DNA of 64,000 nt. It comes from Flavobacteriia bacterium (GTDB lineage: Bacteria > Bacteroidota > Bacteroidia > Flavobacteriales_D > Crocinitomicaceae). This document shows positions 15,761 to 21,215 of this stretch, in pieces. The position numbers were made by a program, and so were the translations under genes. The notes under the pieces are model-generated. The model did no database searches, was not told where the DNA came from, and worked only from the letters and a program-made list of their open reading frames with translations. The stretch lies in contig JACPDW010000006.1 in NCBI GenBank assembly GCA_016183815.1, positions 1 through 64,000 on the forward strand. Reading direction: 5' to 3'. Within the stretch, counting starts at the first letter, position 1. Each line of letters opens with the position of its first letter.

Positions 15761-17230
15761 GTGAATTTAAACAGAAAATTTAGAGAAATCCCTTTATGGT
15801 TAGCTTTTCTTCCCATTTTGATATTAGTAATTTTTTTAAGTGTAAATGTATTTGTTTTTCCTGATGCCTTAGGGGGACCAAATCAAATTGCTTTATTACT
15901 TTCGGCTGGAGTTGCAGGTTTAATTGCTTGGTCTCTTGGATTTTCGTGGCATAAATTACAAGAAGGAATTTTGCAAAGTATTCATTCCTCAATGAGTGCA
16001 ATACTTATTTTGCTCATAATTGGAGCTTTGGCAGGAACTTGGATGGTTTCAGGAATTGTTCCTACAATGATTTATTATGGTTTAAAAATATTACATCCCT
16101 CCTATTTTCTAGTAGCTTCCTGTGTTATTTGTTCCTTAATTTCATTAGCCACTGGTAGTTCTTGGAGTACAGTCGCAACAGTTGGCGTTGCATTACTTGG
16201 AGTTGGAAATGCTTTAGGAATAAACGAAGGGATAACCGCTGGTGCAATAATTTCTGGTGCTTATTTTGGAGATAAAATTTCTCCACTTTCTGACACAACC
16301 AATTTAGCTCCTGCAATGGCTGGAACAGACTTGTTTACTCATATAAGGTATATGACTTTAACTACAATTCCAACGTTAGCAATTACTTTAATAATTTTTA
16401 CTGTAATTGGTCTTTCAACTAATTTTCATGTATCAAAAAGCGGTGTTGATAACTTGCTACATGCAATTGAAAACAAATTTTTTATTTCACCTATTCTTTT
16501 TTTAGTACCAATAGTAGTTATTGTATTAATAGTTAAAAAAGTAGATGCCCTACCTGCATTATTAATTGGCAGTTTATTAGGGGCTTTATTCGCAATAATA
16601 TTTCAAGCTCCGATTATAAAAGAAATATCAGGAATTTCAAACAATTATTTTAAAGCGTCCTATTCTACTTTTTTTCAAAGTATGTCTTTCAAAACATCAA
16701 TAGATACAGGAAACGCTACCATAAATGATTTATTAACAACAAAAGGTATGCATGGCATGCTTAATACAATTTGGTTAATTGTATGTGCAATGACTTTTGG
16801 TGGAATTATGGAAGCTAGTGGTATGTTACAAAAAATTACTGATACTATTGTTAAAAAAGCTAAATCAACAGGTTCTTTAATTTCTAGTACTGCTTTAACT
16901 TGTATTTTCTTTAATGCAACTGCATCAGATCAATATTTAGCAATTGTGGTTCCTGGTAAAATGTTTGCAAAAACATTTAATAAGAGAGGATTAGCACCTG
17001 AGAATTTAAGTAGAACTTTAGAAGATTCTGGTACCGTTACTTCAGTATTATTCCCATGGAATACTTGTGGAGCAACACAGGCTTCAGTTTTAGGCGTTGC
17101 TACTGGAAGTTATTGGATGTATTGTTTTTTCAATTTAATTAGTCCGATAATGACAATTATTTTTGGTATATTTCAGATTAAGATTAAAAAACTAAAAATA
17201 GATGAACAAATAAAATCTTCTTCAGATTAG
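15761..17230 (+). CDS. nhaC: NhaC-family Na+/H+ antiporter
   Basis: A 489-residue inner-membrane antiporter with about 11-12 hydrophobic segments. Recognisable features are SLATGSSWSTVATVGVALLG, GDKISPLSDTTNLAPAMAG (the substrate-site region of the family), and the C-terminal FNATASDQYLAIVVPGKMF and EDSGTVTSVLFPWNTCGA. It exchanges sodium (or a related substrate) for protons. Starts with GTG at 15761, 18 nt after the flotillin stop; no ATG is available before the first membrane segment. Sharing an operon with NfeD and flotillin suggests that the transporter may sit in a flotillin domain, but this is inference. Confidence 0.93.
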   Translation: MNLNRKFREIPLWLAFLPILILVIFLSVNVFVFPDALGGPNQIALLLSAGVAGLIAWSLGFSWHKLQEGILQSIHSSMSAILILLIIGALAGTWMVSGIVPTMIYYGLKILHPSYFLVASCVICSLISLATGSSWSTVATVGVALLGVGNALGINEGITAGAIISGAYFGDKISPLSDTTNLAPAMAGTDLFTHIRYMTLTTIPTLAITLIIFTVIGLSTNFHVSKSGVDNLLHAIENKFFISPILFLVPIVVIVLIVKKVDALPALLIGSLLGALFAIIFQAPIIKEISGISNNYFKASYSTFFQSMSFKTSIDTGNATINDLLTTKGMHGMLNTIWLIVCAMTFGGIMEASGMLQKITDTIVKKAKSTGSLISSTALTCIFFNATASDQYLAIVVPGKMFAKTFNKRGLAPENLSRTLEDSGTVTSVLFPWNTCGATQASVLGVATGSYWMYCFFNLISPIMTIIFGIFQIKIKKLKIDEQIKSSSD

Positions 17231-17341
17231 ATTTCATAAAAATCCAATAATATAAAGGTAAGAGTTCTTGTTTTTTAAAAAAAATGTTTAAGTTTGTTAA
17301 AAATTTATTAATATTTTCTTAATACTTGGTTTATATAAATT

Positions 17342-17743
17342 ATGAAAATTCAAATCGTTATCGTCTTATTATCAGTTTTTCTCTTATCTTGCAAAAAAGA
17401 AGAAGGGACGGGTGGCAAGGCGTCAATTCAAGGTTTTGTATGGCTTAAAGAATACAATTCAAGTTTTAGTACCCTACAAAAAGAAGGACCTGGATACGAT
17501 ATTTATGTATATATCATTTATGGAGATGAAATCAGTTATGGAGATCGTATCAAAACTAGTTACGACGGAAGATTTGAGTTTAAATACCTTAGAAAAGGAA
17601 AATATAAAGTGTATTGCTTTTCTAAAGATCCAGAAGATACAGACAACATAAAACCTGAAGAAACAATGGTTGTTTTAAAAGAGGTTGATTTGACAACAAA
17701 AAAACAAGTTTTATCTTTAGATACACTTATAGTTTATGATTAG
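17342..17743 (+). CDS. Small lipoprotein with Cna-B/carboxypeptidase-regulatory-like fold
   Basis: A 133-residue lipoprotein with lipobox FLLSCKKE (Cys about residue 17) and a body resembling a prealbumin-like domain: KASIQGFVWLKEYN, then YDGRFEFKYLRKGKYKVYCF and a final strand. Such domains usually serve as structural or binding modules on the cell surface. First gene of an overlapping operon that includes the VTC polymerase. Its last 8 nt overlap the next gene (ATGATTAG). No catalytic motif is visible. Confidence 0.75.
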   Translation: MKIQIVIVLLSVFLLSCKKEEGTGGKASIQGFVWLKEYNSSFSTLQKEGPGYDIYVYIIYGDEISYGDRIKTSYDGRFEFKYLRKGKYKVYCFSKDPEDTDNIKPEETMVVLKEVDLTTKKQVLSLDTLIVYD

Positions 17744-18278
17744 AATCTTTCCTATTCTTTTTATTTTAATTCTTTCAAATTTGTTTTTTGCTCAGTCGAA
17801 AAAAAAGTTGATTAGAAATAATATCACATCAATTCAAACTGAAAAAATTACTGATTCAGGAAGGCAAATTGTTAATATAAAGAAATTTAATAAAAAAGGT
17901 GAATTAATTTTAGAAGAAGATTATGATAAAAATGGTAAATGGAAAAGTAAAGATGAATGGATTTATGATAAAAATGGTAATATCATAGAAAAAACAGAAT
18001 ATAAAGAAAATAATGAAATTAAAGCCAAAGAAATTTATCAATATAAAAATGATTTCCTTATACAAATTACTTATTTTAAAGAAAAAGAGATAGAAAAAAT
18101 AGAACAATACGCCTACAATGCATTTGGTGAAAAAATTGAAGAAAAAATTTTTAATAAAAAAAATGATTTAATTGAAAAAATCATCTATGAGTACGACAAA
18201 CATGGTCTTAAAATAAAACGGATAACATATAACGCTTTAAATGAAATATTAGAACAAAGAATTTACACTTATCAATGA
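17736..18278 (+). CDS. Secreted YD/RHS-like repeat protein
   Basis: A 180-residue secreted protein with a signal peptide (residues 1-20, ending FFAQS). The mature part is a run of short repeats of the type EWIYDKNGNIIEKTEY, YNAFGEKIEEKIF and YEYDKHGLKIKRITYNA. These resemble the YD/RHS-like beta repeats of Bacteroidota envelope proteins, which probably form an elongated sheet. It is very lysine- and glutamate-rich. It overlaps both neighbours (8 nt upstream, 4 nt ATGA downstream), which ties its expression to the polyphosphate polymerase gene. No enzymatic function is suggested. Confidence 0.75.
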   Translation: MIRIFPILFILILSNLFFAQSKKKLIRNNITSIQTEKITDSGRQIVNIKKFNKKGELILEEDYDKNGKWKSKDEWIYDKNGNIIEKTEYKENNEIKAKEIYQYKNDFLIQITYFKEKEIEKIEQYAYNAFGEKIEEKIFNKKNDLIEKIIYEYDKHGLKIKRITYNALNEILEQRIYTYQ

Positions 18279-19039
18279 CTATAAATTTAGATTTATTAAA
18301 CGAGTTTAATCCCATTAGTTTGGAGCAAATGGATAATGTGGCACTCATGGATCGTGTTGATACTAAATTTATTTTTAATCAGATTACTTTAAGTGAAATT
18401 CTTAATGATTTAAAAGAAGATTATTCTGTCCTTGAAATAAACCAAATTAGAGCATTTCAATACCATTCTCTTTATTTTGATACTCCTGATTTTAAATTGT
18501 TTTACAACCATCATAGAGGTAAAACAAGTCGTTTCAAGTTTCGTTTTCGTTCTTATATCGAAAGTAAATTGACTTTTTTTGAAGTAAAATATAAAGATAA
18601 TAAAGGAAGAACCAAAAAAAGTAGAATTAAAGAAAATCATAGTGAATACTTATTAAATGAAAATACGAATATTTTTTTAAATGAGAAATCTACATTTAAG
18701 AACATAGATATTGAAGAAAAAATATGGGTTAATTATAAAAGAATAACTCTTGTGAATAATACTGAAAATGAAAGGGTGACTATTGATATGGACATCGAAT
18801 TTCTCAATCAAAATGAAACATTTAAATTAGAAAATATAGTTTTAGCAGAGGTTAAACAAGATAAACAAATTAACTCTGTGTTTAAAAGAATAATGCATAA
18901 AAAACATATACGTCCAGGTTCAATTAGCAAGTATTGTCTTGGAATATGTTTTTTATACAAAAATCTAATTCATAATAATTTTAAACCTTATATTCACCAA
19001 ATTCAAAAATTTACAAAAAAACAATTGCAATATGCTTAA
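18275..19039 (+). CDS. VTC-domain polyphosphate polymerase
   Basis: A 254-residue single VTC domain, the tunnel-shaped fold that in yeast Vtc4 makes polyphosphate from ATP. Likely tunnel residues are seen in MDRVDTKFIF (Arg27, Lys31), SRFKFRFRSY (Arg86 to Arg92), FFEVKYKDNKGR (Glu103, Lys105), DMDIEF, LAEVKQDKQ and the C-terminal RPGSISKYCLG. There is no SPX domain and no membrane segment. It overlaps the next gene, a DUF4956 membrane protein, by 8 nt; this pairing is widespread in bacteria. Polyphosphate product is inferred from the family, not proven for bacterial VTC in general. Confidence 0.92.
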   Translation: MTINLDLLNEFNPISLEQMDNVALMDRVDTKFIFNQITLSEILNDLKEDYSVLEINQIRAFQYHSLYFDTPDFKLFYNHHRGKTSRFKFRFRSYIESKLTFFEVKYKDNKGRTKKSRIKENHSEYLLNENTNIFLNEKSTFKNIDIEEKIWVNYKRITLVNNTENERVTIDMDIEFLNQNETFKLENIVLAEVKQDKQINSVFKRIMHKKHIRPGSISKYCLGICFLYKNLIHNNFKPYIHQIQKFTKKQLQYA

Positions 19040-19625
19040 TTTATCTTTTATGGCTGTTCAGTTTACAGGAAATAGCGAGTTTTATCTACGTTTACTAATT
19101 GACATAGTTAGTTGTTTAGTATTAATTAGATTAATCTATTACCCAATCTATAAAAACAGAGAATTTTTCTTTACGTTTATTATTTTCAATATTATAATAT
19201 TTTTTATCACGTATTTGATGAAAAACGTTGAAATGAGTATGGGAGCTGCTTTTGGTTTGTTTGCGGTTTTTTCAATGCTTCGTTATAGAACGGAAGGTTT
19301 GTCTATGAAAGACATGACATATCTTTTTTTAGTCATTGCTTTAGGTCTTATCACAGCTATTGGAATGGGTACATTGATTGAAATTACAATTCTTAATGCA
19401 CTTATCATCATTTTTACCTATGTTTTGGAAAGCAATCTGTTAATTAAGAAAGAGTTTACAAAAGTGATTCAATACGAAAATATTGAGTTAATTAAACCTG
19501 ACAAATATAATGAGTTGAAATTAGATTTAGAAAATAGAACAGGATTAAAAATTACTCGAATTGTTGTAGATAGAATTGATTTCCTTAGAGATACAGCTTT
19601 ACTTACAGTTCATTATAATGAATAG
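19032..19625 (+). CDS. DUF4956 membrane protein
   Basis: A 197-residue protein with four or five predicted membrane helices in residues 15-135 and a cytoplasmic C-terminal domain of about 60 residues. The DUF4956 signature is strong: MGAAFGLFAVFSMLRYRTE, then MKDMTYLFLVIALGLITAIG. DUF4956 is the usual neighbour of bacterial VTC polymerases and may anchor them or move the polymer across the membrane; the second is inference from the yeast VTC complex, which couples synthesis to translocation. Starts at ATG 19032 (8 nt overlap) or possibly ATG 19050. Confidence 0.92.
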   Translation: MLNLSFMAVQFTGNSEFYLRLLIDIVSCLVLIRLIYYPIYKNREFFFTFIIFNIIIFFITYLMKNVEMSMGAAFGLFAVFSMLRYRTEGLSMKDMTYLFLVIALGLITAIGMGTLIEITILNALIIIFTYVLESNLLIKKEFTKVIQYENIELIKPDKYNELKLDLENRTGLKITRIVVDRIDFLRDTALLTVHYNE

Positions 19626-20259
19626 GTTTGTATTATATTTAATTTTTATCTATCCTTTTTATTCAATAAGTCAATTTAAAGATTTGGCATTATGGATGGA
19701 ATTGGACTTAGAAAAAAAAATAAACACACAACATTCTATTCTATTTTCACAGAATTTAAGATTAAATGAAAATTTAAGTCAATTAACAACACATTTTTCT
19801 CAGCTAACTTATTGTTTTAAAAAAAAAGATTGGAAATTTAACACAAGCTATCGTTTCAGTGAAAAATTTAAATTCGATAATTCAATTAATTATAGGCATC
19901 GATTTATGTTGGATATTATTTACAGAAAAAAAATTCAAAATTTTTCACTTTCATTAAGAGAAAGAATTCAATATTCAAGTGAATATCCATTAGACAATTT
20001 CAGACGAAAATCAGTTCTAACTTCAAGGCATAGATTAGAGTTTTCTTACGATTTATTCTATTTCGATTTAGGTCTTTCTGGAGAATTTTTTTTAGAAAAA
20101 GCTTATGATTTAAATGAATACCGAACTATAATTTCTTTAAATAAAACATGGAACAAATATATTTCATCGGAATTATATTATGGTATTCATTTTGACCGTT
20201 CTTCCTCTGTTCCTAGTGATTTATATATCATCGGTTTAGGTTCTAAATATAGATTTTAA
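19618..20259 (+). CDS. DUF2490-like outer-membrane protein
   Basis: A 213-residue secreted protein with signal peptide (MNRFVLYLIFIYPFYSISQ) and an alternating, aromatic-rich beta pattern to the end (final residues GLGSKYRF), as expected of an outer-membrane barrel. The layout matches DUF2490 (LALWMELDLEKKI, FNTSYRFSEKF, HRLEFSYDLFYFDLGL). I start it at ATG 19618, which overlaps the DUF4956 stop by 8 nt (ATGAATAG) and gives a proper signal peptide; the longer frame from 19576 would add 14 residues that spoil it. It closes the five-gene overlapping group. Confidence 0.8.
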   Translation: MNRFVLYLIFIYPFYSISQFKDLALWMELDLEKKINTQHSILFSQNLRLNENLSQLTTHFSQLTYCFKKKDWKFNTSYRFSEKFKFDNSINYRHRFMLDIIYRKKIQNFSLSLRERIQYSSEYPLDNFRRKSVLTSRHRLEFSYDLFYFDLGLSGEFFLEKAYDLNEYRTIISLNKTWNKYISSELYYGIHFDRSSSVPSDLYIIGLGSKYRF

Positions 20260-20273
20260 GCAAAATATATTTT

Positions 20274-21215
20274 ATGTTTAAAGTAACTAATCTAAGCGTT
20301 GAAAGAAATAGACCAATTATAAATGATATTTCATTCTCAGTAAACAAAGGAAAATTATTATGTGTAGTTGGAAAAAGTGGAGTTGGAAAAAGTACACTTT
20401 TACATTGTTTAGCAGGTTTAATCCCACAGTCTCAAGGAACAATAGTACTTAATCATCAAAAACAAAATTTTTCTGATCAAGGATTGATTCCTGGTTATAA
20501 AGATGTTGTATTAATGAATCAAGATTTTGCATTAGACAACTATCATCTTGTGGAAGAAAATTTAAAAAATGCGTGTTCTCTACTACCAACTCCTATTCAA
20601 CAAGAATGGGTCAATGAATTGTTGACATTATTTGAGTTAAATCATTTAAAAAAAGAAAAAGCCATTCATTTGTCAGGTGGAGAACAGCAGCGACTTGCTT
20701 TTGCAGTAGCTTTAGCAAAAGAACCTTCAGTTTTGCTTTTAGACGAACCATTTTCAAATATGGATGTTCATCTTAAAGACAAAGTTATGAATTACCTTAT
20801 TTTATTAAAGAAAAGGCAAAAAACAGCAATAATTATGGTTACTCACAACGGACAAGAAGCTTTGAATATAAGTGATCATATTGTATTTTTGGAGAAGGGG
20901 AAAATGCAAAGATTTGCACAACCAAAAGAAGTTTATTTTTTTCCTTTTTCTTTTTATGAAGCTGTTTTTTTTGGAAAGATTAATGAGATAAAAATAAATA
21001 GGGAAAAACTTCTATTCAGACCGCAACAGTATGAAATAGAGGAAAATAAGAATGCTATATCTATAGAAATTCAATTTAAGAGGAAACATTTTTATGGTAT
21101 CTTTGAATTATATGAATATTCATACAAGAAGACTCCTATTTATTTATTACAAAAAAATGATGTAATTTTAGAAAAAATATTTGTAACTGCATCAAATGAA
21201 AAAAAATTGGAATAA
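20274..21215 (+). CDS. Orphan ABC transporter ATP-binding protein
   Basis: A 313-residue ABC ATPase. All motifs are intact: Walker A GKSGVGKSTLL, Q-loop MNQDFAL, signature LSGGEQQRLAFAVALA, Walker B VLLLDEPFSNMD and H-loop MVTHNGQEAL. About 75 residues follow the ATPase core, in the position of a TOBE-like regulatory domain of the PotA/FbpC import class. No permease or binding protein is nearby. It lies 14 nt after the DUF2490-like gene and overlaps the BrkB-like gene by 20 nt, so it may be part of one long transcript from 17342. Confidence 0.88.
   Translation: MFKVTNLSVERNRPIINDISFSVNKGKLLCVVGKSGVGKSTLLHCLAGLIPQSQGTIVLNHQKQNFSDQGLIPGYKDVVLMNQDFALDNYHLVEENLKNACSLLPTPIQQEWVNELLTLFELNHLKKEKAIHLSGGEQQRLAFAVALAKEPSVLLLDEPFSNMDVHLKDKVMNYLILLKKRQKTAIIMVTHNGQEALNISDHIVFLEKGKMQRFAQPKEVYFFPFSFYEAVFFGKINEIKINREKLLFRPQQYEIEENKNAISIEIQFKRKHFYGIFELYEYSYKKTPIYLLQKNDVILEKIFVTASNEKKLE

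Follow-up and report, generated by a model that had tools for sequence, protein, structure and literature searches.

Yeast makes polyphosphate in the cytosol through the VTC complex (Vtc1/Vtc3/Vtc4) and passes it across the membrane by way of a basic channel, with synthesis and translocation coupled (PMC9911596). In bacteria, genes for a CotH kinase, a polyphosphate polymerase and a DUF4956 protein have been described as accessory genes of Gram-positive Pel loci (PMC7112168), and the same trio, with a VTC-type polymerase, also occurs in Pel clusters spanning Firmicutes and bifidobacteria, for example as SIR_1592-1594 in Streptococcus intermedius (PMC12345266), where we equate SIR_1592 with the DUF4956 gene of PMC7112168. 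Here we describe a five-gene operon (A to E) around a predicted VTC polyphosphate polymerase in a 64,000-nucleotide (nt) stretch of a Flavobacteriia bacterium of the Crocinitomicaceae (contig JACPDW010000006.1, assembly GCA_016183815.1, positions 1 to 64,000), referred to below as the window. We put at about one in two the probability that this operon represents, in Bacteroidota, a CotH-VTC-DUF4956 system crossing two membranes, by which a phosphate polymer would traverse the envelope to serve a surface kinase.

The locus shares with the Pel accessory genes the side-by-side arrangement of VTC and DUF4956, with CotH alongside in many relatives of the operon, and differs from them by a lipoprotein, a secreted repeat protein and an outer-membrane barrel. 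The 2025 paper PMC12345266 reports that the three-gene synteny was not found outside Pel, whereas we found CotH, VTC and DUF4956 in one run in 35 of 60 loci (sampled as described below), in flanks not searched for pel genes; none of the nine window proteins scanned was a pel product, although no search aimed at pel was made. Two further records touch the same families: in Bacteroides thetaiotaomicron, BT3498-99 are neighbouring DUF4956 and DUF2490 genes (the families of D and E) in a transcriptome table that gives them no role, and the term VTC is absent from the main text of that paper (PMC10434189); Clostridium perfringens NELoc-2 carries polyphosphate polymerase and CotH genes (PMC11677781). 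In the open-access literature searched, we found no account of the A-E unit or of a purpose for the VTC-DUF4956 pair.

Composition of the operon

The five genes and their predicted products (lengths in amino acids, aa) are as follows.

A, 17342..17743, + strand: 133-aa lipoprotein with signal peptide, Cys17 and GxGG motif; predicted small beta-sandwich-like domain
B, 17736..18278, + strand: 180-aa basic, secreted protein with degenerate YD/RHS-like repeats
C, 18275..19039, + strand: VTC-domain protein (PF09359), predicted polyphosphate polymerase with a triphosphate tunnel fold
D, 19032..19625, + strand: DUF4956 membrane protein (PF16316), about five transmembrane (TM) helices and a C-terminal beta-alpha-beta-beta (ACT-like) domain
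E, 19618..20259, + strand: DUF2490 outer-membrane beta-barrel (PF10677) with conserved Arg/Lys

An earlier note on this DNA had described five same-strand genes overlapping by 8, 4, 8 and 8 nt, and the open reading frame (ORF) coordinates bear this out (A/B 8 nt, B/C 4 nt, C/D 8 nt, D/E 8 nt). For E, the ORF list starts at a TTG at 19576; the ATG at 19618 precedes the signal peptide and yields the 8-nt overlap with D.

Conservation of the gene set

A related-locus search with a single VTC sequence returned nothing, and loci were instead recovered with a DUF4956 alignment. From its best matches we took 80 named, mostly Bacteroidota loci, a sample that leans towards near kin of D; 60 were usable (17 lacked enough flank and 3 a called DUF4956 ORF). 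In one same-strand run with D, these 60 loci carried C in 57, E in 49, CotH in 36, B in 35 and A in 33; A, C, D and E occurred together in 31, and all six parts in 18. Gene orders varied (with F for CotH: FABCDE, ABCDEF, ACDEF, BACDE, FBCDAE and others), which argues for a functional connection over mere descent.

The lipoprotein gave a second, independent anchor. Searching 395 Bacteroidia genomes with an alignment of A gave relatives in 177. Gene calls at the 30 best loci included A in 27, and the next gene was always B, C or E. We also took 40 longer A-anchored stretches from a spread of families. Setting aside 3 with too little flank and 7 without DUF4956 left 30, of which 27 carried C, 27 E, 18 CotH and 17 B. 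Across the 395 genomes, strong matches to A (E up to 1e-20) occurred in 142 of 188 genomes with VTC and in 11 of 207 without, and CotH in 182 of 188 and 49 of 207, respectively, figures that ignore shared ancestry and are inflated by relatedness. The association of A with VTC is beyond chance. Among genomes with both genes in the places listed, A lay within 4 kb of VTC in 75 of 91.

The pattern is different within the window's own family. VTC was found in 115 of 150 sampled genomes, and a DUF4956 gene in all 111 records (110 loci, of which L001 is the window's own, plus the window), with VTC labelled in 110. The full A-B-C-D-E order was confined to the window's genus (window, L009, L010, L014); three loci of another genus had A-C-D-E, one had C-D-E, and one (L039) was rearranged to A-E-C-D. 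After 16 of 81 records were dropped for too little flank, 61 of the 65 loci had C-D only. The earlier note had said that absence of the outer three genes from most genomes with VTC and DUF4956 would refute its proposal; within the family most loci indeed lack them, and the wider sample reverses that picture.

A proved separable from VTC in some genomes. It was listed away from VTC in 16, and at the 13 of these loci that were refound (3 were not; VTC lay elsewhere in the genome) E was adjacent or one gene away in nine, a divergent CotH was present in five, and B in four. A and E are kept together at a locus of their own in six own-family genomes examined, five of which have CotH next to the pair. 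The natural reading is that the operon joins an inner-membrane block (C-D) to an outer-membrane and surface block (A-E, with or without CotH).

Other observations from these loci concern flanking genes and forms of A. Genes resembling ispF and porV by eye converge with the module in L172-L174, L179, L186 and L195, joined in four of these six by one that resembles porU of type IX secretion. In L007, L012, L016, L030 and L041 an lpxK-like gene (lipid A 4'-kinase; by eye) follows DUF4956, and many own-family loci have a gene of like size in its place. A form of A of about 240-260 aa occurs in several families (L177, L178, L184, L185, L340-L342), and in G350, G328 and G387 two A matches lie in one frame; the long form is probably a tandem duplication.

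CotH kinase as a recurrent sixth component

In many loci the gene preceding A encodes a CotH kinase, although none lies beside A-E in the window, whose own genome carries four CotH genes elsewhere. In a genome of the same genus (G014), CotH stands 106 nt before A, and a CotH of the window's genome (L206), which has a secretion tail, has its best match (38% identity) in the CotH directly before A-B-C-D-E in L278. We scanned eight of the CotH proteins from these loci: seven end in a type IX secretion tail, the other is truncated where its stretch stops, and some carry a lamin tail domain. Asp228 and Asp251 are the catalytic aspartates of Bacillus CotH (PMC7821199); the apparent equivalents, which we locate on a 5jd9 alignment from the distance of 23 between the two, are Asp in 77 and 83, respectively, of 93 CotH sequences (13 and 9 gaps; fetched loci, some genomes repeated).

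Upstream of CotH, type IX secreted arylsulfotransferase-like and propeller/X25-domain proteins recur (L274:192-3414, L269:2296-3999, L189:9102-10109), and these are possible CotH substrates or partners. In L050, a 965-aa gene directly before VTC was considered as a CotH candidate and rejected; it had no CotH match and by eye is a repeat protein.

Predicted properties of the proteins

The nine window proteins scanned were compared with Pfam at curated cut-offs. C matches VTC (1.5e-30, profile positions 2-235 of 235, above cut-off), and this is the only Pfam domain in its 254 aa, with no SPX domain. Across 44 sequences, the window included, R86, K88, R90, E103, K105, R117, R156 and D171 are invariant and E192, K194 and K219 almost so. 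The catalytic tunnel of yeast Vtc4 includes R264, R266 and E426 (PMC9911596). The (nearly) invariant R-x-K-x-R, E-x-K and T-x-D positions of C are candidate counterparts, the alignment to solved VTC being weak and partial: a search of solved structures with the C alignment gave one weak match, to yeast Vtc2 (0.0053), and a search with the single sequence gave none.

D matches DUF4956 above the curated cut-off (3.4e-52). Its AlphaFold2 model (mean predicted local distance difference test, pLDDT, 89.5) has about five membrane helices and, C-terminal to them, a beta-alpha-beta-beta domain; Foldseek returned only weak ACT-like matches, in agreement with the layout of TM segments plus ACT given for SIR_1592 (PMC12345266). 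Charges in the loops point, weakly, to a cytosolic location of those between TM1 and TM2 and between TM3 and TM4.

E matches DUF2490 (2.3e-13, 50.7 bits against a cut-off of 29.8) and models as a barrel of eleven long strands (mean pLDDT 93.3). Among the top 15 solved structures, the nearest are the KdgM/NanC porins (Z 15.6-16.2) and autotransporter barrels (14.5-16.0). E is predicted to be an outer-membrane barrel like the basic porins for acidic oligosaccharides, resembling KdgM/NanC in its small size, its Z of about 16 and its conserved basic residues, and differing from them in sequence (10-12% identity) and Pfam family, with autotransporter barrels scoring equally. We compared 47 aligned E proteins (window included) with 30 unlinked DUF2490 proteins, the best-scoring from 60 own-family genomes. 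VTC-linked E proteins had more Lys/Arg at positions 33, 68, 79, 83 and 93, reaching 73-78% at 79, 83 and 93 versus 0-3% in the unlinked set, in which position 93 is Glu in 29 of 30. These positions, the sole remaining difference of E, may reflect lineage effects.

For A and B, no Pfam family passed its cut-off. A gave profile matches to NOMO2 (1.2e-5) and to other beta domains of surface proteins, and across 33 sequences (window included) C17, G22, G24 and G25 are invariant; the conserved GxGG stretch follows the cysteine at which lipidation is predicted. B reached the RHS repeat below the Pfam cut-off and the NCBIfam YD repeat marginally above its own (16.1 bits against 15.8, E 0.012); net charge was positive in all 57 relatives counted.

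Discussion

A candidate trans-envelope phosphate-polymer pathway. Under the reading that we favour, C would be a cytosolic enzyme that uses ATP to build polyphosphate or a similar phosphate polymer, and D would anchor C at the inner membrane and hand the growing chain to the periplasm, a task carried out in yeast by the helices of Vtc1/Vtc3/Vtc4. Handling of the polymer, periplasmic or at the outer membrane, would fall to the basic protein B and the lipoprotein A; the basic barrel E would conduct it across the outer membrane, and the secreted CotH kinase would act at the surface on or with it. Gene content and order, co-occurrence and the two separable blocks are observed, and the folds are predicted. 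The identity of the polymer as polyphosphate, its outward direction, and its use or modification by CotH are the conditional parts of this scheme. The C-D pair may be the bacterial counterpart of yeast VTC in job, not in D's descent: both combine a VTC/TTM polymerase with a membrane partner and share the proposed coupling of synthesis to translocation, whereas C has no SPX domain, the partner is a DUF4956 protein, and the proposed target is the periplasm or surface rather than the vacuole. The earlier note had suggested a trans-envelope polyphosphate route built from a coupled inner- and outer-membrane unit. That unit is supported, in that its parts recur across Bacteroidia, E models as a porin-type barrel, and a phosphate-type porin replaces E in three gammaproteobacterial loci; its parts list was incomplete, lacking CotH, and the export role is still something that we infer.

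Several observations weigh against this proposal. In 24 of the 60 D-anchored loci the run has no CotH, and none was seen beside VTC-DUF4956 in the Methanoperedens (L223) and Calditrichaeota (L272) loci, nor in four alphaproteobacterial plasmids and Deinococcus QL22 (the plasmid gene tables being incomplete). Three genomes of one Bacteroidia family, f40 (L180-L182; G348, G389, G628), which are not among the listed VTC genomes, have A, B, D and E with no VTC in the operon (two of the three with CotH in the run), and on a Pseudoalteromonas plasmid genes for a lamin-tail protein, DUF4956 and Porin_O_P stand in that order, again with no VTC seen; a VTC gene in cis is thus not needed in every case. 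The relatedness that inflates the co-occurrence figures counts here too. D gave no profile match to solved structures and no Foldseek match at E 0.001, which makes a channel role for it conjectural. A basic barrel was rejected as a hallmark of VTC-linked E proteins, since the unlinked DUF2490 proteins are basic too (mean charge +8.2 versus +9.8), and KdgM, NanC and OprO/P are uptake porins. The window's genome (3.24 Mb), with its single VTC gene, also encodes a PPK1-type enzyme. S. intermedius mutants that lack SIR_1592, 1593 or 1594 still produce Pel and aggregate, with moderate changes (PMC12345266).

Loci in other phyla and the alternatives. Outside Bacteroidota the pair occurs in varied surroundings, whose common thread is phosphate and the cell exterior. 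Marinobacter and Thioploca-labelled loci have the order CotH-VTC-DUF4956-Porin_O_P; with the Pseudoalteromonas plasmid, a Porin_O_P gene follows DUF4956 in all three gammaproteobacterial loci seen, and the Thioploca-labelled porin matches OprP (2.6e-36) and OprO (2.4e-35). The likeness to these phosphate and polyphosphate porins lies in the adjacency to DUF4956 in those loci; in the window E is a DUF2490 protein, and no Porin_O_P was found among the nine proteins scanned. The four alphaproteobacterial plasmids examined, of 12 records, carry DUF4956-VTC and then a phytase-like gene; in Nitratireductor a PHO4 transporter gene separates the two. Deinococcus taeanensis has CotH-VTC-DUF4956, the VTC-DUF4956 pair of Deinococcus QL22 has an acid phosphatase gene and phn transporter genes in its vicinity, and a Pseudobutyrivibrio plasmid has CotH, VTC and DUF4956 among glycosyltransferases. 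As a separate observation, an S8 peptidase and a sigma factor lie near DUF4956-VTC on three of the alphaproteobacterial plasmids (L327, L328, L330), two of them with an anti-sigma factor.

The gammaproteobacterial porins, together with the phytase-like and PHO4 genes of the alphaproteobacterial plasmids and the phosphatase and phn genes of Deinococcus QL22, also suit a system for phosphate acquisition and storage, in which E and the OprO/P-type porins would import phosphate oligomers and C-D would store polyphosphate in or near the periplasm. We consider this unlikely: it leaves unexplained the tie to CotH, which holds in 182 of the 188 Bacteroidia genomes with VTC and recurs in D. taeanensis, two gammaproteobacterial loci and Pseudobutyrivibrio, and it does not account for the lipoprotein A. 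Of similarly low probability is surface phosphorylation of proteins or exopolysaccharide, with the VTC-like enzyme making a phosphorylated glycan, lipid or other phosphoryl carrier and D acting as a regulator. The presence of the trio in Pel clusters (PMC7112168; PMC12345266) and in the glycosyltransferase-rich Pseudobutyrivibrio cluster points this way, and the ACT-like C-terminal domain of D would fit a regulator, whereas basic and acidic residues of the kind expected of a VTC tunnel are (nearly) invariant in C. That C-D is the sole functional unit, with A, B and E accidental neighbours in this lineage, is very improbable despite the 61 of 65 own-family loci with C-D alone, given that 31 of the 60 D-anchored loci combine A, C, D and E, in orders that differ, and that A co-occurs with VTC genome-wide even where the two are unlinked.

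Returning to the trans-envelope pathway, a more specific version of it is that polyphosphate is exported as the phosphoryl donor for extracellular CotH kinases, forming an ATP-independent surface kinase system across two membranes. We hold this version only tentatively and think it doubtful; it was considered because where CotH on spores obtains its ATP is described as an unanswered question (PMC7821199) and because only 6 of the 188 Bacteroidia genomes with VTC lack CotH.

Boundaries of the transcription unit

No terminator-like site was found within 17100-20400, and no exact match to the Bacteroidetes-type promoter pattern lies upstream of A. The pattern TTTG-17to23-TANNTTTG, which we take to be the Bacteroidetes promoter, occurs 16 times in the window against 8.9 expected, with none just upstream of A. 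The NhaC, ABC transporter and YihY genes that flank A-E were tried as further operon parts and set aside, with profile matches in only 3, 6 and 4 of 206 records, respectively; ABC and YihY genes also lie past DUF4956 in L080, L085 and L096, on the opposite strand.

Implications

VTC-DUF4956 pairs are common in Bacteroidia, where they are annotated as a polyphosphate polymerase and a domain of unknown function. Across many Bacteroidia families this pair now gains a set of partners that spans both membranes, and a secreted kinase, while in three gammaproteobacterial loci an unrelated phosphate-type porin fills the outer-membrane slot. The role of DUF4956, the destination of the bacterial VTC product and what feeds CotH kinases outside the cell can therefore now be tested together. 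If polyphosphate were indeed the phosphoryl donor, the lack of ATP outside the cell would no longer be a problem for CotH.

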